Shown here piece by piece: positions 1,947 to 20,651 of a stretch of DNA of 25,787 nucleotides. The stretch's first letter is position 1; each line of letters begins with the position of its first letter. Both the position numbers and the translations under genes were made by a program. A model generated the notes under the pieces. It was not told the DNA's origin and did no database searches. It saw only the letters and a list, made by a program, of their open reading frames with translations. This stretch comes from a virus, in IMG/VR virus record IMGVR_UViG_3300025137_000258, positions 1 through 25,787 of that record; one strand, written 5' to 3'.

Positions 1947-3830
1947 ATGCCCAGCACCAGCTTCACCGGCAAGCGCGCCAACTTCATCGAGCAGTATGCC
2001 CGGACCGTGGCAGCGTACCAGCGGTATCAGGACATCACCCGCGAGATTCAATCTGAGCAGGACCGCCTCAATTGGCTGGACTCCCAGGTTGTGGCTGAGA
2101 ACCAGAACCTCACCAACCTGCAGGAAGTCTTCAGGGTACGCCCGCAGGACCTCGGCAGCGCTCAGGCTTTGCTACAGCAGCAGTATGCCTCTGAGGATGC
2201 AGGCCGTCGACGAGCTGCAGCGGGCAGGCTTGCACGGGAAGAGGCCTCGGACATCACAGACGCAGACAAGGCGCGCCTTACAGCCCTGGCTACCGAGGGC
2301 ACCCAGTACGACCAAGGCGCAGCGCAAGGCCTTGCACTTGAGCTAATCGGGGAAGACTCCACACCCCAGCAGACTGCTCAGGTTCTACGCATCCTCGAAG
2401 CAGGCTCCATCGATGCAGGTGTCATCAATGAAGTGGAAGTCAGGGCAGCCCGTGTGGCCCGTGGCAGGGTCCCCAGTGGCGCAGCTCGAGCACTGACACC
2501 CGAGGAGAAGGCTGCAGAGCGAGCACTGCAGCAGCAGCTTGAGTCTGCGTTCTTTGCCGGTCCTGCAGGCATCCGAGGCGGCTACGATGGCCAGGCCATT
2601 GTAGAGCGTCGAGAGTCGACAGCAGCCCCCGAGACTGTCAGCTTCAGCACCGAGAGCGATGCCTTTGACGCTGCCCTTGTGGCCATGCAGAACGGCGCCA
2701 TTACAGAAGACGAGTTTGAGAGCAAGGAAGACTTCCAGTTCGCCAAGAAGCTCTACGACGAGGCCAAGGCAAAGCGGGCATACCGCAACGACCAGCGCGC
2801 CAACTTCGAGCAGGAAGTCCTCAAGTCTCGGCAGCGGGTGACGCAGCTGGAGACAGCTCGAGCCGAGGCGCCAGGCGCCCAGTACACAGACCCAGGCAGG
2901 GAACGGGCAAAGCGCGAACTCATCGCCCGAGGCTTTGACCCGGACAAGAACGGAGGGCGGTACCTGCAGTACCAGCAGAGCCCCTACTACGGCGCCATGA
3001 TTCGGGCAGACAGCATCCTCACCGATGTCATCAGTGCAGACATGGAGCTGCAAGCGGTCGACAGCAACCAGCGCCTGGCTGCAGACCTCATCCGTCAGCT
3101 CGATGCACGGGGCAAGCCCTACGACATCACCAAGGTGGAGAAGCAGCTCGGCAAGGTTCTCAAGGGTGACGAGCTGCAAGAGGCTCTTGCCTTCGCACTT
3201 GCCACCAAGGAATACGACGCCCGAGGCTTCGAAGCACCCAGCCAACGGGAACTCCAACGGGCAGCCAAGCAGCGGGCAGCCACCGAGGAGGAGCAAGCGC
3301 GCGCCCTTGATGCGGAAATCACCGACACCATGGAGGGGGAGCTTGACCAGCAGGCCCTCTTCATGCAGCGCCTACCCAAAGACACGGTGCGCTCAGAAGA
3401 TACGGCGCGTCTGCGGGCTCGGGCGACAGAAGCCGCGCAAAGGGAAGTGGGGGAGATTGAGTTCCAAACCGCTGCCACCGATGCCCCAGACCCTGCGCCC
3501 ACCCCTGCGCCTGTTGTGGCCGAGGTCTTCAAAGACCCCAACGATGCGCGCCTCTCCTACCGGCGGGTTCCGAGTGGCTTCGCAGTCTTCGAGCAGGGCA
3601 AAGACAGACCCACCCTGGCAGCTAAGGGTACCCGAGCCTTCGAGAGCATCCAGTCCGTGGTCTCGGGCGGTCAGCCACTGCCACTGCCCACCCCTGCGCC
3701 TGTTGTGGCCGAGGTTGCCGAGGTAGCGCCGGCGCCTACCGCGCCTGCAGGAGAGGCCGAGCCTACGCCTGTACCGAAGCGCATCGTGGACATGACAGAC
3801 GACGAGCTGCGCGCCCTGGCAGGTGAATAG
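1947..3830 (+). CDS. Large coiled-coil virion protein, putative internal/ejection protein
   Basis: The 627-aa product is overwhelmingly alpha-helical, rich in Ala, Arg, Glu and Gln, with heptad-like stretches across roughly residues 1-500. The C-terminal 110 residues differ: two identical PTPAPVVAEV linkers (about residues 518-527 and 581-590) bracket a compact module of about 50 residues, then a second Pro-rich stretch leads to an acidic end. No enzymatic motif is seen. The gene starts 8 nt after the preceding stop, and its own TAG overlaps the GTG of the giant downstream gene by one base, so the three genes form one translational unit. By analogy with the middle internal virion proteins of podoviruses I infer a DNA-ejection role. 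Confidence 0.6.
   Translation: MPSTSFTGKRANFIEQYARTVAAYQRYQDITREIQSEQDRLNWLDSQVVAENQNLTNLQEVFRVRPQDLGSAQALLQQQYASEDAGRRRAAAGRLAREEASDITDADKARLTALATEGTQYDQGAAQGLALELIGEDSTPQQTAQVLRILEAGSIDAGVINEVEVRAARVARGRVPSGAARALTPEEKAAERALQQQLESAFFAGPAGIRGGYDGQAIVERRESTAAPETVSFSTESDAFDAALVAMQNGAITEDEFESKEDFQFAKKLYDEAKAKRAYRNDQRANFEQEVLKSRQRVTQLETARAEAPGAQYTDPGRERAKRELIARGFDPDKNGGRYLQYQQSPYYGAMIRADSILTDVISADMELQAVDSNQRLAADLIRQLDARGKPYDITKVEKQLGKVLKGDELQEALAFALATKEYDARGFEAPSQRELQRAAKQRAATEEEQARALDAEITDTMEGELDQQALFMQRLPKDTVRSEDTARLRARATEAAQREVGEIEFQTAATDAPDPAPTPAPVVAEVFKDPNDARLSYRRVPSGFAVFEQGKDRPTLAAKGTRAFESIQSVVSGGQPLPLPTPAPVVAEVAEVAPAPTAPAGEAEPTPVPKRIVDMTDDELRALAGE
3497..3526 (+). repeat. 30-bp direct repeat, copy 1 (Pro-Ala linker)
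   Basis: This 30-base stretch is identical to 3686-3715, exactly 189 bases (63 codons) downstream and in the same frame. It encodes the first PTPAPVVAEV linker of the 627-aa virion protein. Base-perfect identity suggests recent duplication rather than convergent Pro-rich composition. Confidence 0.9.
3686..3715 (+). repeat. 30-bp direct repeat, copy 2 (Pro-Ala linker)
   Basis: Second copy of the 3497-3526 sequence, encoding the second PTPAPVVAEV linker. The two copies bracket a module of about 50 residues, so recombination between them would delete that module cleanly in frame. Confidence 0.9.
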
Positions 3831-6800
3831 TGGCAACCGCTCAAGAGGCCCGCGTTGAGCTTGCACGGCGCGAGCTTGCACGGCGCGAGCTTGCACGCAG
3901 GCAGGCCGATGCTTTGCCTGTGCGCCCCATGCGAGCCGAGCAGACGCCCATCCCGGAGATAGCGCCACTTGCTGAGCTGGAGGCCGCCCAAGCTGCAGCC
4001 GTTGAGGAGCAGGTCTCGCAGGAGATGGCGCCAAGGGGTGGCAACATCCCGGCCGGTGAGTTCTCGGCCGAGCGGCAGCGCGTAGAAGCTCGCGCAGAGC
4101 GGCAGCAAGAGCGGCAGCGCAGCCAGGTGCTGCAACCGGGCAGGACAGAACCCCAGCGAGTGGCCGAGGGTGGCATCCCTACCCTGCGCCCTACTCGCAT
4201 CGTGACTCAGGAGATTCCTGCAGTGACTCAGCAGGGTGAGATTCTGACCGAGCGCAGCATCGTGGGCGACGATGGGCGTCTTCGGCCACCGACTGCAGAC
4301 GAGGAGACAGCCGAGGCCTTTGCCATGCAGCCTATCCTTGGGGCTGAGTCTGCCCGAGTCATCAGCGAGCGGGTGAGGGCTGAGCAGGCCGAGATTGACC
4401 GCAAGGTGGCAGCAGGCGAAGACGTTAGCCCCTTCGAGTACGCAGGGGCTGCCCTCGGTGGCATCCTCACCCGTCCGGGCGAGCAGACTGGTGTCTTTGA
4501 AACCGAGCTTGCGGCAGGCCTGCGCTCAACCCTCGGCTGGGTGTCTGCGCTCGCTGGAGAGGGATACTTCCGAGGTCTCGGCTACGAGGTGGACAAGAAC
4601 GGCATCCCCGTGGACCCGGATGATTTCGGGCTTGCCATCGCTCAAGGGCGCAGGGCTATCGGCCTGCCCGAGGTGGTCTACCCGCTGCAGCCCATCAGTG
4701 CGCCCATCCGCGCTCTTGTCAGCGGTCTGGATGAAGAGGCAGGGCAGCAGCTTGAGCGCCTCATCAAGTCCGTGCCTCAGCTCGCTGTACCGCTGCCCGG
4801 TGTGGCGACCACCAGCCAGACGGCAAAGCTGACCACCTTTGACCCGGAAGGCAGGCGCACAGTCCGCCAGGTGCGAGTACCCGACCCGAGAGAAGACTTC
4901 TCGGGATGGCTTGACGCCACACAGCGGCGCGTGTCGCAGAACGTGGCAACAGGCCGGACCATGGGCGACGAGTTCATCGATACCCCTGCGCTGCGGGACT
5001 GGTATGCCGAGGTCTGGGGGAACCCAGATGCCGCCTACTTCGGGGGCAGTCTGTTGGAGCTGTTCGTACCAGCCGGACCGGGCACAGCAGCCAAGGGCGC
5101 CAAGGGCTTGGCGAAGCTCACCAAGGCAGACAAGGCCACCAAGGCAGCGGTCAACCTTGCAGGCCGGTCCGCCATCCGAGCAGCGCAAGCCATCGAGCAG
5201 GGCAAGCCGTCGAGCAGGCTGGCAAAGCAGGCCCAGGCGGCAGCGCTGAGCCTTGCCAACCCTGTGGCCGATGTGGCGGCAGCAGTCACCCCTGGCAAGC
5301 TCTCAGAGGGGCGCGTAGTGCGCCGCGTGGCTGAGCAGGTTCTTGATGGGGCAGCGCTGGACAAGGCAGACGCAGCACGAGCCAAGGCAGCCATCAGGCC
5401 TACCAGCTCCACACCCCAGGCCATCATGAGGGATGTGGCGCCCTACCTGGGGGACCGGGCTAGTGTCTTTGGGCGCGCCCTGGTGCAGAACATCCCCGAT
5501 GATGTGGTGATGATTACCTCGAACGTGGGCGTCCCTCGGGTGCACGCCAACAGCATGCGCGCCAGCCTGGGCAGGTTTCGGCGCGAAGTCTTCAGCGGCA
5601 GCCCCAAGGATGTGGCCCACAGACTCCCTGGAGACCTCGGGCAGCAGGTGGCGCGCTTCGATGACTGGGGCAGTGTACCCACAGGCCTGCGCAGACAGGC
5701 CACGATTGTGCTCGAGGATGCCCATGCAGTCAGCCAAGCACCAAAGCAGGCGCGCCTTGCGCGAGACCTCACGAGCCTGCAAACGTGGTTCCGCACCACA
5801 GACAGCAACCTCACCAAGCGCCTGCTCAAGTCTCAAGGCCTGGACTCTCCAGCTATGCGAAGGGCTCGGGCAGTCTTCCGGCTGCGCGCCCTGCCCCTAC
5901 AGTCTGAGACTGCAGCGGTAGTGCAGGCCCGCCAGGCCATCCGAGGGGCAGCCACAACCGAGCTGCAGCGCCTCGGCAAGCGTTTGACCATACGCAGCAG
6001 GGAGCTGGGCAACGCAGATGATGCGGTTGACGGTCTGTTTGCGGAAGAGCTGGCATCTTCTCCCAGCCCCATCGGCGCAACCGAGGCATGGGAAAAGACC
6101 ATGGGCGCCATCTACGGCGACGAGAACGCAGGCAAGCGCCTGTTCAAAATTGCCCTTGAAAAGAAACTGATACCGAGCGCGAACGGCAAAGACGCCCTGA
6201 TAGGTCCCACTGTGGACACTTTGCGCGGGGTGGATGTCAGTCTCTACGATGACGGTGTGCAGGGCGTCGTTGGGGTCAGAGGTACGAACCTCGCATCCAA
6301 GCACTTTGCGCCGGACTACCAGAAGGCGCTCCTCAAGGTGGCAGTGGAAGAGGGCACCAAGAAGAACCTGGCAGCCCGTGGCAGGCTCACCGAGGCCATC
6401 GGCTCAGCGGTAGATGGCCTGGTGACGCAGGCCTCTCGGGTACCTGCAGGACTCACCAAAGCGGTGGAGCTGCTGGGTGATGGGGTCATCAACGAGCTGC
6501 CCGTACTGCGAGAGGGCAACCGGGTGCGCGCTCGGGTCTACGACCGGAACGCAAGCGCCGCAGAGCGCATCCTTGCCGAGAACGGGGAAGAGTTCGCTGA
6601 GTTCATCGAAGGCATCGCACCGAGAGCTAGGAAGGGGCTCAAGTCCGTTCTGGGGGAAGTGCTTGAGCTGTTCCTTGGGACAGGGCGCCGCAACTTTGCG
6701 CAGAATATGCAGTATGGCTTTGTGGGCCCCAATGTTGTGGGCTTCCCATACGCCCTATTCAAGCAGGCCATCACCCCACTGCTCACCGTAGGGCTACAGG

Positions 6801-8173
6801 GTTCAGCAGACATCGTCGACCAGGTGGTACGTCGTCGAGTCTTCGGGGGCGGCCTGACCACTACCGATGGGGTGTACTACACGGGCAAGCAGCTGCAGGA
6901 ACTCGGTGAGGAGCTGGGCCTTGGCTACACGACCGTGTCATCTGAGCGGGTGCGCAGCATCGCAGACGACCTGTTGAGAGATGCACGGCGAGCAGCAGAG
7001 GGACCGCTTGAGGGCTTGGTCAAGCGCGAACTCAACCCACTGGACAAGTCGTTCTGGACCCGTAGCGCTGAAGCTGTGGAAATGTCCATGAGGCAGGGCG
7101 CCTTTGAGGCCGAGCTGCTGAAGGGGCGGACACCCGAGCAGGCTGCCCAATACGCGCGGGATGCCCTCTTTGATTACTCCGAGGTGCCCGAGGCCATCCG
7201 GCAAGAGCTTGGGCGGTACTTCGCAACCGCTGCAGGCAACTCCAAGCTCTACACGGAACTCGTCAAGGCCATCATGGCGAACCCGGACAAGGCGCGCCTG
7301 GTGCTCAAGGCCCAACTGCAGAAGGCCCGAGCGCAGGACCCTCATAACCTGCACGGAGACAAGGCGCTCAAGTCCTTGGGTCTCGTGACGATAGGTGATG
7401 GCGTCTACTTCGGGCCGGAGGTGCCAGCCTTCGCGCCTGCAGAGGTAGCGCTCGGCATGGCTCGCCAGGGCAACCTTCTCGTGCAAGACCTGCGAGTCGC
7501 TACCCAAGCTGCGGAGCAGGTAGGGGCAGAGGTCAACCAAGTGGTTGAGGGTACGCAGACCATCACCCGCACTCTTGAAGATGCAGCCATGCCTCTGGTA
7601 CTGGATGCCTATGACCGCTTCCAGGCTGGGGCCGAGGTCAGTCCTGTAGGCATCCAGGGCGCTGCCCCCATCAGTGACGAGAAGATGTTTTGGGCCGCTG
7701 CTTTGTATGCCCACAACATGGACGCCAGCCGAGACTTGGGCCTGTGGGACTGGTTCGAGCGGGTCTTCAAGCCTGAGACAGTGATGCCCCCCAAGGGCAG
7801 CTTCAAGGAAGAACTGCCCGAATACTGGACCAAGGCACCCAAGGGGCAGCCCCATGTCTTGTGGGGTCGAGACGAGACCGGCATGCCGCTGTACAAGGTC
7901 CTCAAGCCGTCCGAGGATGGACAGCTTGCCATGACACTGCTGCGCGCTGCATCACCCAAGGCCATCGAACAGGCCTTCGTAGCCGGTACCAGCCTGGTGG
8001 AACCTGTGGCCGTCGAGCAGCAACCCACTGCTGTCTTCGGCGGTGACCTTCTGCCCCCATCGCCTGCCCGAGCTGCGCTTGATGCCACCCTCGGCCGAGC
8101 GCCGGAAGCAGACCCGGAGAGGGTCAGGCGCGCGCAGCTCGAGCAACTGTCAGGGGTCATTCAAGGCCAGTAA
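3830..8173 (+). CDS. Giant virion protein (1447 aa), putative ejection protein
   Basis: This is the largest gene in the window. It starts at a GTG that shares its first base with the upstream TAG. The N-terminus contains a short tandem repeat (ELARR, residues 10-24), then a long Glu/Arg/Gln-rich region. The middle is Ala-rich and helical; about residues 940-1000 hold an LFLGTGRRNFAQNMQYG stretch followed by hydrophobic segments, which could insert in a membrane. Near residue 1108 is YARDALFDYSEVPEAI, followed by a conserved-looking helical segment. As far as I recall, similar 'FDYS' segments occur in very large phage virion proteins and polyvalent-protein regions. No lytic transglycosylase active site is obvious. 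Size, order and composition support an internal or ejected protein like the largest podovirus core proteins; this is inference. Confidence 0.65.
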   Translation: MATAQEARVELARRELARRELARRQADALPVRPMRAEQTPIPEIAPLAELEAAQAAAVEEQVSQEMAPRGGNIPAGEFSAERQRVEARAERQQERQRSQVLQPGRTEPQRVAEGGIPTLRPTRIVTQEIPAVTQQGEILTERSIVGDDGRLRPPTADEETAEAFAMQPILGAESARVISERVRAEQAEIDRKVAAGEDVSPFEYAGAALGGILTRPGEQTGVFETELAAGLRSTLGWVSALAGEGYFRGLGYEVDKNGIPVDPDDFGLAIAQGRRAIGLPEVVYPLQPISAPIRALVSGLDEEAGQQLERLIKSVPQLAVPLPGVATTSQTAKLTTFDPEGRRTVRQVRVPDPREDFSGWLDATQRRVSQNVATGRTMGDEFIDTPALRDWYAEVWGNPDAAYFGGSLLELFVPAGPGTAAKGAKGLAKLTKADKATKAAVNLAGRSAIRAAQAIEQGKPSSRLAKQAQAAALSLANPVADVAAAVTPGKLSEGRVVRRVAEQVLDGAALDKADAARAKAAIRPTSSTPQAIMRDVAPYLGDRASVFGRALVQNIPDDVVMITSNVGVPRVHANSMRASLGRFRREVFSGSPKDVAHRLPGDLGQQVARFDDWGSVPTGLRRQATIVLEDAHAVSQAPKQARLARDLTSLQTWFRTTDSNLTKRLLKSQGLDSPAMRRARAVFRLRALPLQSETAAVVQARQAIRGAATTELQRLGKRLTIRSRELGNADDAVDGLFAEELASSPSPIGATEAWEKTMGAIYGDENAGKRLFKIALEKKLIPSANGKDALIGPTVDTLRGVDVSLYDDGVQGVVGVRGTNLASKHFAPDYQKALLKVAVEEGTKKNLAARGRLTEAIGSAVDGLVTQASRVPAGLTKAVELLGDGVINELPVLREGNRVRARVYDRNASAAERILAENGEEFAEFIEGIAPRARKGLKSVLGEVLELFLGTGRRNFAQNMQYGFVGPNVVGFPYALFKQAITPLLTVGLQGSADIVDQVVRRRVFGGGLTTTDGVYYTGKQLQELGEELGLGYTTVSSERVRSIADDLLRDARRAAEGPLEGLVKRELNPLDKSFWTRSAEAVEMSMRQGAFEAELLKGRTPEQAAQYARDALFDYSEVPEAIRQELGRYFATAAGNSKLYTELVKAIMANPDKARLVLKAQLQKARAQDPHNLHGDKALKSLGLVTIGDGVYFGPEVPAFAPAEVALGMARQGNLLVQDLRVATQAAEQVGAEVNQVVEGTQTITRTLEDAAMPLVLDAYDRFQAGAEVSPVGIQGAAPISDEKMFWAAALYAHNMDASRDLGLWDWFERVFKPETVMPPKGSFKEELPEYWTKAPKGQPHVLWGRDETGMPLYKVLKPSEDGQLAMTLLRAASPKAIEQAFVAGTSLVEPVAVEQQPTAVFGGDLLPPSPARAALDATLGRAPEADPERVRRAQLEQLSGVIQGQ
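3857..3897 (+). repeat. 15-bp in-frame tandem repeat encoding ELARR
   Basis: The unit GAGCTTGCACGGCGC is present in two perfect copies (3857-3871 and 3872-3886) plus an 11-base partial third copy. Each copy keeps the reading frame and adds ELARR at the extreme N-terminus of the giant virion protein. Exact DNA identity between copies suggests recent slippage. Confidence 0.9.
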
Positions 8174-8220
8174 TGCTATGATGGGGCTGCGCAGCCGGTC
8201 CAAGCACGAGGAGGAGCGCC
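8174..8220 (+). promoter_or_regulatory. Candidate extended -10 promoter and strong SD before the 146-aa virion gene
   Basis: The short gap after the giant gene holds TGCTATGAT (8174-8182), a good match to an extended -10 element (TGnTATnnT). No convincing -35 box lies 16-18 bases upstream, which extended -10 promoters can tolerate. A strong GAGGAGG-type Shine-Dalgarno follows just before the ATG at 8221. The same TGCTATG(A/C)TGG string recurs in the leader of the major capsid gene. Confidence 0.35.
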
Positions 8221-8661
8221 ATGCCCACCAGAATCACCCACTTTCTGCACCACAGCCCTGTCACAGGTGACCAAAGCGTGTTGACCAGCTTCAGCACCGG
8301 TGTGGTCCATGCCCATGACCTGCAGGCCTACCTCCCGGACTTCCAGCGTCTCAGCCGGAACTACCGGGGCATTGTGCAGGGCATCACCGTGAAGCTGACG
8401 GGCAGCACCAGCCCCACCAAGGTCACCATCCGGGTCTGCGCAGATGCAGCCGGTGACGAGGTCCTTGTGCCTGACACTGAGGCAGACCTGGTGGCAGGGG
8501 TGACCACTGCAGGGACCAAGAGCGCTACCTTCCGGGTAGACCTTCCACTCTGGCAGGATGTGGGTGGACCGGGCAACGGCACCCTGTACCTGTTTGCCAA
8601 GGTCGACAGCGCGACAGGGACGCCCAAGCTGGCAGCCACTGACATTTTCTGGCAGGAGTAG
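8221..8661 (+). CDS. Small beta-rich virion protein
   Basis: This 146-aa protein follows the strongest ribosome-binding site in the late block (GAGGAGG), which suggests high expression. The sequence alternates short hydrophobic strands with Gly, Thr and Asp turns (for example ITVKLTG, KVTIRVCADAAGDE, TLYLFAKVD). This looks like a jelly-roll or immunoglobulin-like beta sandwich. There is no signal peptide or membrane segment. It lies just upstream of a larger Ser/Gly-rich beta protein and probably works with it at the virion surface. I recognise no named family; decoration, fibre base or head-tail accessory protein are all possible. Confidence 0.6.
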   Translation: MPTRITHFLHHSPVTGDQSVLTSFSTGVVHAHDLQAYLPDFQRLSRNYRGIVQGITVKLTGSTSPTKVTIRVCADAAGDEVLVPDTEADLVAGVTTAGTKSATFRVDLPLWQDVGGPGNGTLYLFAKVDSATGTPKLAATDIFWQE

Positions 8662-8663
8662 GC

Positions 8664-9713
8664 ATGCCCATCACTCCATGCTTTGACCCCACTACAGGGG
8701 CGTCAGGCGGTGCAGCGGGTGGGGGAGGAGCTGCAGCAGCAGTCACGCCACCCAGCCCCACAAGTGAGAGCACGGCAGCAGGGGCAGCCCTGACCAACAA
8801 GACCTTCTCAGCCTTCACAGACCCAGCTGGGGTCATCGCCTCCTTTCAGGCAGTGACAACCACAGCCACAGGCTCGGCAAGCTGGTCAGGCAGTGGGCTC
8901 GGGGCCTATACACCCAGCTCGTCAGATGGCGACTCGGGCACCTTGAGCCTCAACGCACTGGCAGCAGGTGGGCAGGTCCTGGCTACGGCGGTGCACACCT
9001 ACGACCGGGCAAGCCCTGCAGGCGCGTCCTGGGTGGTGACCTCGGACACTGACCTCACAGCGCTGCCCAGCACCACCTTGAGCGCAGGCTCTCAGGTCAT
9101 TTCTGGGGTGACCCTGGTGTGTGATGGCGCTGGGGAGACTGTCGGAGGTGGGGCCGGCCTGACCGCAGGGGCAGCCGACGCCAGCTACCAAGATGTCAGC
9201 GCGTTCTTCTCGGGCGAGAACCCGCGCCTGGTGGAAATCAAAATCGTGAACGCTGCTTGGGGTGGCACTGGCACCGGGCACGCGGTCAGAGGCCGATTCT
9301 TTGCCGATACGGCTGCCTCGGGGCCGGCTGCGCAGACCCGCTACTACCCTTCCGGTTCGGCAATGCGATTTCAGGCACAGTGGCAACCAAGGTACGTGGG
9401 GGCAACGGGAGGGTTTAGTACCTCGGGCGGAAGCTACGACCACTCCGGGGACTCGGCTGTACTCACATGGTACTCCTACATCGCCATGGTCCGAGGTACC
9501 TTCTACGTCTGGATTTCCAAGACCGTCGACGTACCCACCTCCCTGGTGGACCTGCTCACCCCTGACGCATTTACCTGGGTGGTTGGAGTGAACGCTTACT
9601 CGGCCCTCGGCACAACGGCCTACCAGCCAGCCACAGCCCTGGCGGGCATCTTCAACCAGAACGCTGGAAGCCTCGGCCTCATCGAAAATGTCCGGACCCT
9701 GGAGTTCAAATGA
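8664..9713 (+). CDS. Beta-rich structural protein, candidate fibre/receptor-binding protein
   Basis: The 349-aa product begins with a low-complexity Gly/Ala/Ser/Thr/Pro region (about residues 8-45), then a Thr/Ser/Gly-rich beta region. The C-terminal domain is richer in Trp, Tyr and Phe (for example FQAQWQPRYVGAT, WYSYIAMVRGTFYVW). A flexible N-terminal linker leading to a compact aromatic beta domain is common in phage fibres and carbohydrate-binding virion proteins. It starts 2 nt after the previous stop behind a GGAG motif and ends in an ATGA overlap with the next gene. No glycosidase or lyase motif is apparent. The adsorption role is inferred from composition and position. Confidence 0.55.
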   Translation: MPITPCFDPTTGASGGAAGGGGAAAAVTPPSPTSESTAAGAALTNKTFSAFTDPAGVIASFQAVTTTATGSASWSGSGLGAYTPSSSDGDSGTLSLNALAAGGQVLATAVHTYDRASPAGASWVVTSDTDLTALPSTTLSAGSQVISGVTLVCDGAGETVGGGAGLTAGAADASYQDVSAFFSGENPRLVEIKIVNAAWGGTGTGHAVRGRFFADTAASGPAAQTRYYPSGSAMRFQAQWQPRYVGATGGFSTSGGSYDHSGDSAVLTWYSYIAMVRGTFYVWISKTVDVPTSLVDLLTPDAFTWVVGVNAYSALGTTAYQPATALAGIFNQNAGSLGLIENVRTLEFK

Positions 9714-10000
9714 GCCACGCACCAACCGAAGTCAAGCCCTGGGTCCTTGATGGTGGGGCGGTTGATGTCCCCTGTGACGAGCTGCTTGCCTACTGGCGAG
9801 ACGGTGACGAGACCTCAGACGTTGAGCTTAGCGACGGCTCAGTGGTCATCTCCTCACGGACTCCCCCACCTGGTGCCGAGGCAGTCAAGGCAGACATCCT
9901 GGCCCGAGTGGCAGACGGAGAGAGCACTCCAGTGCTTGCCTCCCACCTCGACGCCATGGGCTACCGTGCTGCGCTGCTTGCTTGGGCTGTGCGCAGCTGA
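9710..10000 (+). CDS. Small acidic protein of unknown function
   Basis: A 96-aa acidic protein that starts in an ATGA overlap with the upstream fibre-like gene and shares one base (TGATG) with the downstream start. The first half (PWVLDGGAVDVPCDELLAYW) looks like beta-strand segments, and the second half is helical and Ala-rich. There is no signal peptide, transmembrane segment or recognisable motif. Tight coupling to structural and lysis genes suggests late expression. It could be a fibre chaperone or a minor virion protein, but nothing in the sequence decides this. Confidence 0.6.
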   Translation: MSHAPTEVKPWVLDGGAVDVPCDELLAYWRDGDETSDVELSDGSVVISSRTPPPGAEAVKADILARVADGESTPVLASHLDAMGYRAALLAWAVRS

Positions 10001-10251
10001 TGGCGAGGCGCATCAAGAAGGGTGAACCAGGGTTTGGAAGAAAGAAGTTCGTGGCTACAGGCACCTACGAGGGAAAAACGTACACGGTCCGCTTCGGAGA
10101 CCCGGACATGGAAATCAAGCGAGACAACCCAAAGAAGCGCAAGGCCTTCAGGGACCGCCACAACTGCAGCGACCCAGGGCCACCAAACAAGGCGCGCTAC
10201 CACAGCTGCAAGATGTGGAGCAGCAAGCCAGTGAGCAAGATAGCCAAATGA
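10000..10251 (+). CDS. Small basic phage protein with RHNC...ARYxSCKxW motif
   Basis: An 83-aa, strongly basic protein. I place the start at the ATG sharing one base with the upstream TGA rather than the GTG 18 bases earlier. It carries the run VRFGDPDMEIKRDNPKKRKAF, then RHNCSDPGP and ARYHSCKMW. I recall this pattern as a recurring module in proteins of many environmental phages, without an established function. The two cysteines and the neighbouring His residues could bind a metal. It is the first of two Lys-rich, Cys-containing small proteins that flank the endolysin gene, and it is coupled to that gene by ATGA. DNA or RNA binding is possible given the charge, but this is inference. Confidence 0.7.
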   Translation: MARRIKKGEPGFGRKKFVATGTYEGKTYTVRFGDPDMEIKRDNPKKRKAFRDRHNCSDPGPPNKARYHSCKMWSSKPVSKIAK

Positions 10252-10892
10252 CAAAGCGCCCATGGCAGGTAGACTTTGACTGCTCTGGATGTGGCGCCTG
10301 TTGTCGGGCAGTGGGGTGCGATTTTCTGGAGGGCAACCGCTGCAGCATCTATCTGCACCGGCCTGACTTCTGCCGTGTGGGATACTCGTACGACCCCAAC
10401 ACGGACCTTGAGCAGTACCTCGAGGCAAACCGCCAAGCCTGCAAAGAGCTTGAGCTACTCTTTCCCCCGGAAGCACCTATGAGCTGGGCCTTCTCTTCCC
10501 GCAGCATGCAGCGGCTGAACACCTGTCACCCTGACCTCATCCTGCTGATGACTGAGGCCTTGGCAGACCCTGCCTGTCCGTCTGACATCAGTGTGCTTGA
10601 GGGCTACCGAGACGAGGAGCGCCAGAACCAGATGGTGGCCGAGGGCAAGAGTCAGCTCAAGTATCCCCGCAGCTTCCACAACAAGGTGCCCAGCATGGCT
10701 GTGGATGTTGCGCCCTACGTCGGCGGCATCACCTGGGACTGGGACTACTACTACCCGCTCGCTGAACACATCGAAGCGGTCTGGGCGCGCCTACAGTCTG
10801 AGCGTCGAGTCAGTGCAGGCCTGAGACTAGAGTGGGGTGGGGCATGGACCTCATTCGCTGACGGTCCGCACTGGCAGCTGGTGCAGGCGTAG
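10248..10892 (+). CDS. M15-family endolysin peptidase with N-terminal YkgJ-like cysteine-cluster domain
   Basis: This 214-aa protein starts at the ATG of an ATGA overlap. Residues 11-70 match the YkgJ-type cysteine-cluster signature: CSGCGACC near residue 12, then Cys24, a RCSIYLHRPDFCR segment and Cys65, which would bind zinc or iron. Residues 80-214 match the phage M15 D-Ala-D-Ala carboxypeptidase/L-alanyl-D-glutamate endolysin family. They begin with SSRSMQRLNTCHPDL, then VLEGYRDEERQ, SFHNKVPSMAVDVAPY (zinc ligands His144 and Asp153), and end LEWGGAW...DGPHWQL (His208). The enzyme would cleave peptidoglycan stem peptides at lysis. The family usually has the peptidase domain alone; the fused metal cluster is unusual. 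No signal peptide is present, so export would rely on the holin. An internal ATG at 10479 could yield a free peptidase. Confidence 0.85.
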   Translation: MTKRPWQVDFDCSGCGACCRAVGCDFLEGNRCSIYLHRPDFCRVGYSYDPNTDLEQYLEANRQACKELELLFPPEAPMSWAFSSRSMQRLNTCHPDLILLMTEALADPACPSDISVLEGYRDEERQNQMVAEGKSQLKYPRSFHNKVPSMAVDVAPYVGGITWDWDYYYPLAEHIEAVWARLQSERRVSAGLRLEWGGAWTSFADGPHWQLVQA

Positions 10893-10894
10893 CC

Positions 10895-11248
10895 ATGGCA
10901 GATGACGCATGCACCAAGAAGGTGAAGGCCAGCTACAAAGTCTGGCCGTCTGCCCGAGCCTCTCAGGCTGTCGCCAAGTGCCGGAAGGGTAAGGGTCAGG
11001 TCAGGAAAGGGAAAGAGGGCACAAGCCTGCGCCGCTGGGAACGGGAGAAATGGGTAGACAAAGCGACCGGGAAGCCCTGCGGGCACTCCGGTGACTCAAA
11101 GAGCCAATACTGTAGGCCGACCAAAGTGGTAAACAAGAAGAAGACCCCAAGCACCCGAGCGTCAAAAAAAGACGTACAGGACGCCCTGTTTGCCAAACGG
11201 GCAGGCAAGCGAGCCAAGCCCAAGCCCAAGCCCAAGAGGTACTCATGA
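10895..11248 (+). CDS. Small lysine-rich phage protein, DUF5872-like
   Basis: This 117-aa protein begins 2 nt after the endolysin stop. It is extremely basic, with a tail of KPKPKPK. The N-terminal motif CTKKVKASYKVWPSARAS, followed by AVAKCRKGK, then LRRWEREKWVD and PCGHSGDSKSQYC, matches a family of small viral proteins that I recall as DUF5872; the name should be checked. Paired cysteines and a histidine could form a zinc site. Function is unknown; positive charge suggests nucleic-acid association, either in the virion or during host takeover. The gene is coupled by ATGA to the next one and is embedded in the lysis cassette. Confidence 0.75.
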   Translation: MADDACTKKVKASYKVWPSARASQAVAKCRKGKGQVRKGKEGTSLRRWEREKWVDKATGKPCGHSGDSKSQYCRPTKVVNKKKTPSTRASKKDVQDALFAKRAGKRAKPKPKPKRYS

Positions 11249-11469
11249 ACCCGAAGAGAAAAGAGCAGCTGCGGAGACTGGGGCGCGCCCTGGTGGTCGG
11301 CAACCGTCAGACCATTGTGGCTGTGCTTGATGCAGTCATTGAGCCCAAGAGCCTGATGTGGGAGCGCATCAGCGACCTGGCTATTGGCTACGTGGTCGAC
11401 GCCCTGATTGAGGGGCGCGGTGATGTGGTGGAAGGAGTCCGTGAGGCTCTTGACCAGCTGGAAGGGTGA
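11245..11469 (+). CDS. Small protein of unknown function in the lysis cluster
   Basis: A 74-aa protein starting in an ATGA overlap with the previous gene. It has a basic N-terminus (NPKRKEQLRRLGRALVVGNRQ) followed by amphipathic helices with an acidic C-terminus (VVEGVREALDQLEG). A moderately hydrophobic stretch (DLAIGYVVDALI) is too short and charged at its edges to be a clear transmembrane helix. No family is recognised. Its place between the DUF5872-like gene and the holin-like gene suggests co-expression with lysis functions. Confidence 0.6.
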   Translation: MNPKRKEQLRRLGRALVVGNRQTIVAVLDAVIEPKSLMWERISDLAIGYVVDALIEGRGDVVEGVREALDQLEG

Positions 11470-11789
11470 TGCTGTACTTCCTGACCCTGCAGGCCGTTGC
11501 CTTGGCTCAGGAGGTGGCACCGGTTGTGACCTCACACCCAGACATGTGGGGTGTGGGTGGGGGAGGCATCGCAGGCCTGCTGTCTGCTGTGCTTGCGCTC
11601 CTTGTGAAGGATAAGCTACTGTCACCCCAACGGGATGGTGTGGCGCCATCTCAGGCCAACCAAGAGCTGCAAACGCGAGTCACCCGACTCGAACTGCAGA
11701 CGGAGGCCCTACGTGACACCCAGCGAGACCTCAGACAGCTCACCGAAACGCTCGGGCAGCTCATCCGTGACCTTGCCAGCAAGACGTAA
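11469..11789 (+). CDS. Holin-like membrane protein with C-terminal coiled coil
   Basis: This 106-aa protein starts at the ATG sharing one base with the preceding TGA, behind GGAAGG; a GTG three bases earlier is too close to that SD to be favoured. The N-terminus (LYFLTLQAVALAQ) could be a signal peptide or first membrane helix. A second hydrophobic segment (GGGGIAGLLSAVLALLV, about residues 31-48) is followed by KDK. The rest is a regular coiled coil (about 60-105, for example LQTRVTRLELQTEALRDTQR). Small size, one or two membrane helices and the place next to an unexported M15 endolysin suggest a holin, or a holin/spanin-like protein that disrupts the membrane at lysis. The family is not established from sequence. 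Confidence 0.6.
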   Translation: MLYFLTLQAVALAQEVAPVVTSHPDMWGVGGGGIAGLLSAVLALLVKDKLLSPQRDGVAPSQANQELQTRVTRLELQTEALRDTQRDLRQLTETLGQLIRDLASKT

Positions 11790-12262: not shown

Positions 12263-13093
12263 TCAGGTCTTGGGGTGGGTGTAGTAGTTGGGCACTTCGA
12301 TGATGCGCCGCTTCTGGTAGCCAGGCCAGTGGCCCATGGTAGTACAGCCGTCGTACAGGTCCGCGAGGTCTCGGTACAGGGCAGCGGTCTCCATGATGGT
12401 GTTCGGGCCAAGCTCGCAAGCGACCACGTCATGGGGGGCAGCGGTTCGAGCGTACAGCGCAATGAGCTGCACCTGGTTGCGACCCATCGGGGCATACATG
12501 GCCCAGGCTGCCTGCAGGTAGTGGTACAACTGCAGATGGACCCGGTACCGCCCGATTGTATGGGTGATGCTGTGCTCGTCGAGTTCGCTGCTCGTGGTCT
12601 TGAGGTCCACGATGATGAGGCCATGCTCGTCGGAGTAGTGCAAGAGGTCCAGCTTGGCCTTGCAGGGGCCGTAGAGGCCTTGCCAGACGATAGCGCGCTC
12701 CACCTGGGTGCCACGATGCCCGAGGAGCTTCTGCAGCAGCGGGTGCCTCGTAGCAGCCTCAGCCACGGCCAACGCTCGGGCATGCTCGTCCTCGGTGAGG
12801 ATGTCTCGCTCGGTCTGCTTGGCTGCCCACTCCCGATACGCCTTGGTCCGGCGGTTGCCCGGTCCTTCCCACACTGCATACCGGTCTGCGAACTCGTCAG
12901 GCTCGAAGGTCAGGCAGTGAATGGCCGACCCCAGGGTCATGGCTGGCGTCTTCTTGGTGGGGTGCGCCAGGTGGTGCTGGTACTGCTGTGGGTTCTTCGC
13001 CAGCTCCTTGAGCGCTGTGGCGTTCATGGCAGGGAAGGCGAAGTAATCCGCATCAGTCCAGACGGCTGTCTGCTCAGGGGTGGGGATGGTCAT
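12263..13093 (-). CDS. RecE/Cas4-like PD-(D/E)XK nuclease
   Basis: This 276-aa protein shows the PD-(D/E)XK exonuclease pattern: a GSAIH motif (G55 to H59), KLDLL with Asp149, IVDLKTT with Asp163 and Lys165, and a downstream QLYHYL motif (Gln188, Tyr192). The N-terminal NATALKELAKNPQQYQ segment is typical of RecE/Cas4/PDDEXK_1-like phage nucleases. It would resect double-stranded ends to give 3' tails for the ERF protein. The start is the ATG of an ATGA overlap with the RuvC-like gene, preceded by CACAGAGGACAGC; the longer frame upstream reads through the neighbour. No iron-sulfur cysteine cluster is evident, so a RecE-like rather than true Cas4 protein is favoured. Confidence 0.88.
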   Translation of the reverse strand: MTIPTPEQTAVWTDADYFAFPAMNATALKELAKNPQQYQHHLAHPTKKTPAMTLGSAIHCLTFEPDEFADRYAVWEGPGNRRTKAYREWAAKQTERDILTEDEHARALAVAEAATRHPLLQKLLGHRGTQVERAIVWQGLYGPCKAKLDLLHYSDEHGLIIVDLKTTSSELDEHSITHTIGRYRVHLQLYHYLQAAWAMYAPMGRNQVQLIALYARTAAPHDVVACELGPNTIMETAALYRDLADLYDGCTTMGHWPGYQKRRIIEVPNYYTHPKT

Positions 13094-13584
13094 GCTGTCC
13101 TCTGTGTGTGGATGTGGTGGAGCACTGCAGCAAGGGCTTGCCATGCATGGGTGGTGAGACCCTGCAACGGTCCGTCATGGGTGTAGTGGTGTCCGTCCGG
13201 GTCAATGCCGTGCAGCTCACAGACACGGCGCCTGATGGCGCTGTCTGACTTGCCCAGCAGCTTCTTGATGTCCTTGCGGTGCGCTGCGTGGACTTGCATC
13301 TCGTGGATGTCTGCATACTCCCAGATGCGCCCCAGCATGACTGTGGTGTGAATCACAGACCAGCTGGGCGGGCCTGGGTGGGTGTGCTCGAGCACTACGA
13401 TGGGGTTGTCGTTGGCGAGAGCAGCGATGGCGTACCGCACACGGGTGGGGGAGGCCTTGCCGTCTGCCAGTGCCACGACTCCCACGTCTTTGCCTTTCGG
13501 CACGCAGTAGACCACCAGGCCGAGGGTCTTGGGACCCGGATCGATACCAATGTAGATGCTGGCGTCTTTGTAGGGGTCGGCCAT
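13090..13584 (-). CDS. RuvC-like Holliday junction resolvase
   Basis: The 164-aa product has the RNase H-fold signature of RuvC: YIGIDPGPKTLGLVVY with catalytic Asp15, and PIVVLEH with Glu66. It then has WEYADIHEMQVHAAHRKDIKKLLG and a terminal THAWQALAAVLHH helix in the position of motif IV. The expected Asp-x-x-Asp pair of motif IV appears as His146-x-x-Gln149. It would cleave branched intermediates before packaging. The gene begins 2 nt after the ERF stop with an AGGTG-type SD, and its TGA overlaps the nuclease ATG. RuvC-like identity is clear; activity is less certain because of the altered motif IV. Confidence 0.88.
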   Translation of the reverse strand: MADPYKDASIYIGIDPGPKTLGLVVYCVPKGKDVGVVALADGKASPTRVRYAIAALANDNPIVVLEHTHPGPPSWSVIHTTVMLGRIWEYADIHEMQVHAAHRKDIKKLLGKSDSAIRRRVCELHGIDPDGHHYTHDGPLQGLTTHAWQALAAVLHHIHTQRTA

Positions 13585-18825: not shown

Positions 18826-19077
18826 ATGCCAAAGACCAGCGGAACCATGACAGAGCGGCAGCTCCTTGAGGCTGTGGCGAAGCTCGCACCCGAGGCCATC
18901 AGCTGCATCGAGCGCACCCTGCAGGGCAGCGTCAGGCCAAACAAGGCCCAAGCGGACTGCGCCTGGCGCGTGCTGGACTGGTCCAAGGTGGCAGCAGCAG
19001 CACGGGCAGAGAGCGAGGAGACAAGCCCCGATGTTAAGGAGCTGGAGAACGTCCTGAGCCTCGTTGGGGAGTGGTGA
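18826..19077 (+). CDS. Probable terminase small subunit
   Basis: This 83-aa helical protein lies immediately before the large terminase gene, the usual TerS place. The segment LLEAVAKLAPEAISCIERTLQG, followed by NKAQADCAWRVLDWSKVAAA, resembles the central helices of small terminase-type proteins, which often read '...A..iLdr...'. The N-terminus is short and lacks an obvious full HTH. AAGGGG provides the SD. TerS would recognise phage DNA and regulate TerL. The protein is shorter than many TerS (often 120-180 aa), so the call leans partly on position. Confidence 0.68.
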   Translation: MPKTSGTMTERQLLEAVAKLAPEAISCIERTLQGSVRPNKAQADCAWRVLDWSKVAAAARAESEETSPDVKELENVLSLVGEW

Positions 19078-19100
19078 TAGATTGAGGGGCAGAGGACCCC

Positions 19101-20651
19101 ATGAGCATCTACATTCCCCCGAGCATCCCCGAGCGTCTGCACCCCAAGGTCATCGGCCTGGTGGGTGACCCTTCTGAGTTCTGTAGGCTTCACCGCGTGC
19201 AGGACAAGGACAGCAAGCGCGAGATACCCTTCAACCCGCTGCCGATGCAGGTGAAGATATTCAACGCAGTGAAGCGAGGGCACAATCGCATCCTCGTCAT
19301 CAAGGCGCGCCAGGTGGCCGCCACAACGGCTGCCAAGTTCGTGCTGCATCAGCAGTGGATGGCGACCCCTACCGCTGCACTACATGCCCTCGTGTCCCTA
19401 CGGGCTGAGTCTGCCACGGCCCTGCTCGACGACAACCGCCGATGGCTACACCACCCACCCGCCATCCTGCAGCGCCAGCTTGACACCCGCGCCAAGGGTG
19501 AGCTGCGCCTGGCAGACACCGGGGCAAGCCTGAAGGCTTTCACCTCGAGGTCAAGCACAGGCCTGCGCAGCTTCAGTCCCGCCGCTGTGCTGCTGTCTGA
19601 GTTCGCCTTCGCACTCGACCAGGAGGAGCTGCTGGCGCAGGCGCTGTCTGCTGTGGGTGACGGGCTTCTTATGATAGAGAGCACAGCAAACAACCCAGGG
19701 GACCGTTTTAGCGAGCTGATAGCGGGCGCCCCAGAAAACGGCTGGCACCTTATCACCCACTGGTGGCACGAGGAGCCCCGGTACACGGACGCAGACCCGG
19801 AGCACTTCGAGCACACGGAAGGGGAAGAGCAGCTCGTCAAAGAGTACCGGGTCACAGATGGACAGCTCGCCTGGCGCAGGCGCTACCTGGCCACCCTCGG
19901 GCCGTACAAGTTCCGCAGGGAGTACCCGGCCTGCCTCGATGATTGCTTCTTGGGACGGGAGGGCGGATACTACGGGGAAGAGGTCCTGCAAGACATCCAC
20001 GTCATAGACCACGAGCTGCACGGGAAACGACATGGCCGAGAGATTGAGGCGCCCCACCCGCATGACCGGTACGTCATGGGTGTGGACATCGGCGGGGGCG
20101 TGGGCGGTGACTACTCAGCCCTCTGTGTCATATCGGTATCTACCATGCAGCCCGTGTACACGGAGCGCAGCAACCGAGCCACCCCAGCAGCCTGGGCGCA
20201 CCGCTGCATACAGGTGGCATCTCGATACAACAAGGCGCTGATGCTGGCCGAGTCGAATAACCACGGGCATGCGTTCCTGCTCGAAGCCTCGCACTGTGGT
20301 TACCGAGAGCAGTGGCGCAACCCACAGGGGAAGCCCTGGGTGACATCGCTGCAGAGCAAGCTTGATGCCTTCGACACCCTGCGCGAGTCCCTGCAGGTGG
20401 TCAAGGTCATGGACCGGGTGACATGGATGGAGCTGCGCAGCCTCACCATCCCTGCGGGCAAGGTCGCACCTGAGGCCCCGAAAGGTGGCCATGATGACAG
20501 CGCCATGGCCATGGCGTTAGGGTTCCGGTGTCTCCGCGATATTCCGTCCTCTTGGCGGACTCATGCGCTACAATCGGGCCGAACTCGCATCGATGACCTC
20601 ATCCAATCGAGCCGAGCCCGGCGCATCCGGTCCCACAACCTGCCCTTCTGA
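19101..20651 (+). CDS. terL: Terminase large subunit (packaging ATPase-nuclease)
   Basis: The 516-aa protein has both TerL domains. In the ATPase, RILVIKARQVAATT (about residues 63-76) is a KxRQ-type Walker A, AVLLSEFAF (162-170) is Walker B, and MIESTANNPGD (191-201) is the coupling motif. In the RNase H-fold nuclease, VMGVDIGGG holds Asp329, MLAESNNHGH holds Glu384, and GGHDDSAMAMALG holds Asp465 and Asp466. It packages DNA into proheads through the portal and cuts concatemers. The SD is GCAGAGGACC before the ATG. The P-loop has Ala where KARQxG-type terminases usually carry Gly. The family identity is secure; the packaging strategy (headful, cos or repeats) cannot be read from this alone. 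Confidence 0.93.
   Translation: MSIYIPPSIPERLHPKVIGLVGDPSEFCRLHRVQDKDSKREIPFNPLPMQVKIFNAVKRGHNRILVIKARQVAATTAAKFVLHQQWMATPTAALHALVSLRAESATALLDDNRRWLHHPPAILQRQLDTRAKGELRLADTGASLKAFTSRSSTGLRSFSPAAVLLSEFAFALDQEELLAQALSAVGDGLLMIESTANNPGDRFSELIAGAPENGWHLITHWWHEEPRYTDADPEHFEHTEGEEQLVKEYRVTDGQLAWRRRYLATLGPYKFRREYPACLDDCFLGREGGYYGEEVLQDIHVIDHELHGKRHGREIEAPHPHDRYVMGVDIGGGVGGDYSALCVISVSTMQPVYTERSNRATPAAWAHRCIQVASRYNKALMLAESNNHGHAFLLEASHCGYREQWRNPQGKPWVTSLQSKLDAFDTLRESLQVVKVMDRVTWMELRSLTIPAGKVAPEAPKGGHDDSAMAMALGFRCLRDIPSSWRTHALQSGRTRIDDLIQSSRARRIRSHNLPF

Follow-up and report, generated by a model that had tools for sequence, protein, structure and literature searches.

The closest described relatives of the two parts of the protein reported here are the M15C endolysins of Gram-negative phages (T5 Endo, RB49 and LysECD7) and ChiX for one part, and for the other the PF03692 proteins, to which YkgJ is usually assigned, and the flagellin lysine methyltransferase FliB. 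M15 catalytic domains are also found within two-domain proteins of Gram-positive phages (e.g. Ply500), whose known second domains are C-terminal and wall-binding. FliB is a SAM-dependent enzyme without a peptidase, and its N-terminal Cys-rich motif, CX4CX3CC, which the authors of the study liken to PF03692, binds an oxygen-sensitive [4Fe-4S] cluster (PMC8598068). In the literature on YkgJ or PF03692 in connection with phage lysis, FliB alone was informative.

The window, a 25,787-nucleotide stretch of viral DNA (IMG/VR record IMGVR_UViG_3300025137_000258), contains a gene that joins these two kinds of domain. The frame extends from the ATG at 10248 to the TAG ending at 10892 on the plus strand and displays no internal stop or frameshift, encoding 214 residues. 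The initial annotation, which had placed a Cys cluster and a complete M15 peptidase with its zinc ligands in this one frame, was thus correct in its coordinates as well as in its reading of the parts; the extent it gave for the cluster, residues 11-70, was also right, the metal site itself being predicted from sequence. It had further named a stop or frameshift between the domains as a sign that the fusion was false, and had proposed a search for other proteins with the same domain pair. L003, an independent 15.7-kb IMG/VR contig, has an identical fusion architecture and an intact frame (protein identity of 97% over residues 1-214; DNA identity to the window of ~95% over 10 kb). An assembly or sequencing artefact that fused two genes is therefore extremely improbable, as a contig ~5% divergent over 10 kb bears the same fusion, and the arrangement is more than chance. 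These two are the only fused sequences known. The fusion is thus real and uncommon, confined to one small lineage of uncultivated phages; both parts are of known kinds and their pairing appears to be new within the material searched. Features of the locus are listed in the table.

Coordinates of the fusion gene, its domains and surrounding features in the window
Feature	Position	Strand	Evidence or remark
Fusion gene, PF03692 (CxxCxxCC) domain plus M15C L-Ala-D-Glu peptidase, 214 aa	10248..10892	+	Open frame; L003 counterpart
Inserted module of 231 bp encoding the eight-cysteine domain (residues 1-77)	10248..10478	+	Clean block missing from L004 and L101; PF03692; 28 homologs; AlphaFold pLDDT 87
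ATGA start/stop overlap with upstream gene; serves the fusion now, M15 formerly	10248..10251	+	CCAAATGA junction also in L003, L004, L101
Internal ATG (Met78), ancestral M15 start codon	10479..10481	+	ATGAGCTGGGC same as L101 M15 start
M15C endolysin domain, residues 78-214	10479..10892	+	PHROG 465; sequence and fold matches to ChiX 5opz and the RB49 and T5 endolysins
His144, predicted Zn ligand	10677..10679	+	Alignment with the RSRH histidine of ChiX
Asp153, predicted Zn ligand (AVD)	10704..10706	+	Alignment with ChiX and M15C relatives
DGPH: catalytic Asp205 and third Zn ligand His208	10860..10871	+	Invariant in M15C alignment
Small basic gene (phrog_7595), upstream; likely real start ATG 10000	9982..10251	+	Conserved in L004, L012
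DUF5872 gene, downstream	10895..11248	+	
Small protein, possible holin or spanin; hydrophobic stretch at the N terminus, tail coiled-coil-like	11466..11789	+	Sequence inspection only
terS (18826-19077) and terL (19101-20651); junction occupied by Cys gene in L009-L011, empty in window	18826..20651	+	Relatives

The N-terminal domain contains eight cysteines, C12, C15, C18, C19, C24, C32, C42 and C65 (codons within 10281-10442), and two further cysteines lie in the M15 part at residues 93 and 110. Residues 1-78 taken alone score 23.7 bits against PF03692, above the gathering score of 23 bits, while the scan of the full-length protein gives 20.9 bits, slightly under it. The CxxCxxCC signature and the downstream cysteines are present, and in an alignment of 28 phage homologs, all of which match PF03692, the eight cysteines are invariant, as are Y35, R38 and P39. 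None of the NCBIfam or PHROG models fits the domain, and neither a fold search nor a sequence profile search of the PDB returned a match to it. Modelled alone with the 28 sequences by AlphaFold, the domain reaches a pLDDT of 87 and a pTM of 0.70; the first mixed alignment (A3), in which two M15-only proteins were misaligned onto the Cys domain, was excluded from folding. The domain shares with PF03692 proteins the CxxCxxCC motif, the C-x2-Y-x2-RP-x2-C element and a cysteine in the final helix, and differs from them in the short spacer between the CC pair and the next cysteine and in its fusion to a peptidase. In contrast to FliB, the window motif is spaced CX2CX2CC. By analogy with FliB and from the invariance of its cysteines, the domain would bind a metal centre, either a [4Fe-4S] cluster as in FliB or Zn.

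The C-terminal domain is related by sequence to the PHROG 465 endolysin (5e-38), to ChiX (PDB code 5opz; 1e-17) and to the LysECD7, RB49 and T5 endolysins. The AlphaFold model matches 5opz with an E-value of 2e-8 and a TM score of 0.73 by target length, in agreement with an M15 fold, and the predicted Zn ligands H144, D153 and H208 align with those of ChiX and its relatives, together with the catalytic D205. The curated score of Peptidase_M15_4 (PF13539) is not reached (22.9 versus 25 bits), so the M15C assignment rests on the strong PHROG 465 match, sequence and fold. We infer that it acts as an ordinary Zn-dependent L-Ala-D-Glu peptidase of peptidoglycan. The window protein agrees with the M15C endolysins and ChiX in sequence, fold, catalytic Asp and Zn ligands but bears an extra N-terminal Cys domain; in addition, SFHNKVPSMAVD replaces SRHLTGHAVD, placing the ligands two residues further apart, a form common to the sister phage L004. 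It resembles Ply500-type enzymes in carrying an M15 catalytic domain within a two-domain protein, although its second domain is an N-terminal Cys cluster instead of a C-terminal wall-binding module. At residue 199 (10842-10844) the window has WGGAW where L003, L004 and most aligned M15C relatives have WGGDW (E in ChiX and N in L005), a substitution that may affect activity. PHROG 5115, named 'ferredoxin', matches window 10248-10889 over the M15 part and not over the Cys domain; the name may be a misannotation or may point to another architecture that combines M15 with Fe-S.

The origin of the fusion was examined by comparing the gene junction in related phages. L004 is a close relative (TerL 97% and M15 90% identical to those of the window) and L101 a second one (M15 75% identical), and in both the M15 gene starts immediately at the ATGA shared with the gene upstream. 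The L004 junction (ATGAC/TTGGGC) reads AAATGACTTGGGC and that of L101 (CCAA/ATGAGCTGGGC) reads CCAAATGAGCTGGGC, while the window has AAATGAC, followed by 231 bp and then CCTATGAGCTGGGC. The window thus carries exactly 231 bp (77 codons) more than L004 and L101 at this junction, with the frame kept and with ATGA (start/stop overlap) at both ends of the insert. Because the M15 gene of L101 starts at ATGAGCTGGGC, the internal copy of this sequence at 10479 in the window is recognised as the old M15 start. The initial annotation held that M15 endolysins of this type are normally single-domain, which is true of all 79 M15C relatives scanned, none of which has the Cys domain. Since these relatives lack the domain and L004 and L101 keep the old start, the module was gained on the branch leading to the window and L003, which also accounts most simply for the distribution. 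The domain was not found elsewhere in L004, although the 30-kb contig searched is a fragment and this result is weak. Some database records with seemingly >80% query coverage, from the Sphingopyxis VSN-002 and Leptolyngbya Lbo-JY16 phages, were rejected as further fusions, as was a Shigella plasmid match: the part upstream of M15 is a different gene or non-coding and is without the Cys domain. Free homologs can be aligned with the window up to residue ~76 (LFPPEAP versus LYPPKAR-VIDCRS and a stop), and therefore merely a C-terminal tail and the stop codon would have been lost upon fusion.

An ancestral start that persists inside the fusion raises the possibility of two products, with internal initiation at Met78 still yielding free M15 and the fusion being partly neutral. 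Conservation of ATGAGC at this position is in keeping with such a reading, which is nevertheless quite unlikely, since it is the fusion, not Met78, that now uses the coupled-start context of the ancestral gene. A ribosome-binding site at Met78 was considered and rejected: no signal above background was detected there, the SD energy of -3.5 equalling in practice the background median of -3.4 (ATGs in 3830-9713).

Homologs of the Cys domain are also encoded as stand-alone genes of ~75-115 aa in viral contigs from uncultivated phages, in about 40 sequence clusters or lineages (a first set gave 24, L003 among them, and a second, obtained with a different search pattern, gave 16). This eight-cysteine PF03692 family is widespread in uncultivated phages (L009, L012, L022, L025, L028, L032, L038, L046, L061, L236 and others), while no relative of the window domain or of three stand-alone versions was found in cultured phages (50,697 records). 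The genes usually lie among virion and packaging genes, mostly away from lysis genes, the virion roles of the neighbours being assigned from gene order and sequence, not from profile matches. L009-L011, with a TerL sharing 85% identity with that of the window, carry the Cys gene between terS and terL, where the window has a gap of only ~20 bp. In L046 the Cys gene separates terL from portal-like genes and in L236 the portal gene from the major capsid gene, and it precedes an internal-virion-like gene in L022, L061, L067, L201 and L223. In L012 (TerL 63% identical), within the same genome region as in the window, a stand-alone Cys gene overlaps the beginning of an unrelated endolysin gene (PHROG 894, M15A-like). 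The Cys domain of the window is 61% identical to that of L009 and 56% to that of L012, against TerL identities of 85% and 63%, so the copy in the window seems not to have moved recently from the terS-terL site, though small proteins may evolve faster. This common, uncharacterised Cys-cluster family would thus act as a nomadic small gene, settling at junctions in packaging, virion and lysis modules.

Several further neighbourhoods were recorded. In L180 (1396-2776; Burkholderia sp. Ac-20379) the Cys gene lies directly downstream of a match to the PADLOC candidate defence family PDC-M09A (1e-26). In L038, L059, L084 and L085 it lies 3-4 genes from an N-acetylmuramoyl-L-alanine amidase-like gene and adjoins a basic protein that by eye resembles the DUF5872 gene of the window. 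Small HExxH (zinc-peptidase-like) genes adjoin or lie near the stand-alone Cys gene in L016/L079, L028, L074, L032, L052 and L248.

A role in metal supply was evaluated on such neighbourhoods. According to this explanation the Cys domain hands Zn (or Fe) to phage metallopeptidases, either as donor or as chaperone, and its fusion channels Zn to M15. The fusion to M15 in the window and the overlap with an M15A-type endolysin gene in L012 are consistent with it, and in the first set same-strand HExxH genes occur within two genes in 4 of 24 lineages, against a mean of 1.75 for random genes (20 of 500 draws reach 4). The link to zinc peptidases, formed on that set, failed in the independent one, where 1 of 16 lineages against a random mean of 1.04 represents no excess, and the sister M15 enzymes do without the domain. 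Metal supply is thus a weak rival and, in our judgement, very unlikely.

The full-length AlphaFold model (pLDDT 86, pTM 0.66) predicts both domains with confidence, joined by a less certain linker (residues 71-80 at pLDDT 68). The structure prediction proposed in the initial annotation thus returned two folded domains, and the Cys domain may or may not pack over the M15 cleft. The description of the parts in that annotation stands. Its suggestion that a regulatory N-domain holds the peptidase inactive until lysis found no backing in the comparisons, given sister enzymes without the domain, stand-alone versions in ~40 lineages and a recent, precise insertion. In its explicit form, an Fe-S or Zn cluster domain would block the M15 active site as long as the protein is in the reducing cytoplasm, and the peptidase would be freed when the cluster is lost or oxidised once the holin has opened. 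We know of no precedent for a cluster-gated endolysin that senses a redox or metal change. The M15 part has neither a signal nor a SAR sequence and its release would expose it to a redox change, the cysteines are kept in the fused form, and the related FliB cluster is sensitive to oxygen (PMC8598068). Such a switch is nevertheless unlikely: sister enzymes with M15 parts 75-90% identical do without the domain, which also occurs alone at non-lysis loci, the insertion is recent and lies at a gene boundary, and the linker is modelled with lower confidence.

These comparisons argue for a Cys domain that would have its own function and would have been recently acquired, rather than for a purpose-built prodomain. 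Many phages carry the domain on its own and the sister endolysins lack it, and for this reason we regard the fusion as probably two domains that are tethered and co-expressed but largely independent in activity. A nomadic late phage gene of the YkgJ/PF03692 type would have been inserted at the ATGA junction before an ordinary M15C endolysin gene, 231 bp in frame and with its own stop lost, giving a single 214-aa two-domain protein. The C-terminal peptidase would wait in the cytoplasm for the holin, while the N-terminal domain would bind a metal centre and do the same job as its free-standing relatives; fusion would tether and co-express the two domains rather than create a dedicated lysis switch. 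Two observations fit this account less well. The L012 copy that overlaps the start of an M15A-type endolysin hints at a link to lysis, and DNA divergence between the window and L003 is lower in the Cys module (2 of 231 bases, 0.9%) than in the M15 part (5.6%). Nearby, the gene at 9710-10000 is 1.7% different and 11245-11469 is identical, and the low divergence of the module may reflect selection or strong constraint in the fused state, or recent exchange. As sister phages without the domain exist, the enzymes of the window and L003 and those of L004 and L101 constitute a natural with/without pair for the role of the cluster.

The only match of the window TerL is that of Roseobacter phage CRP-7, at 25% identity, and the phage lineage is therefore far from cultured phages. 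On the minus strand, window 13090-13584 encodes a 164-aa protein with IYIGIDPGPKTLGLVVY near its start, which by eye resembles a RuvC-like resolvase and has no Pfam match.
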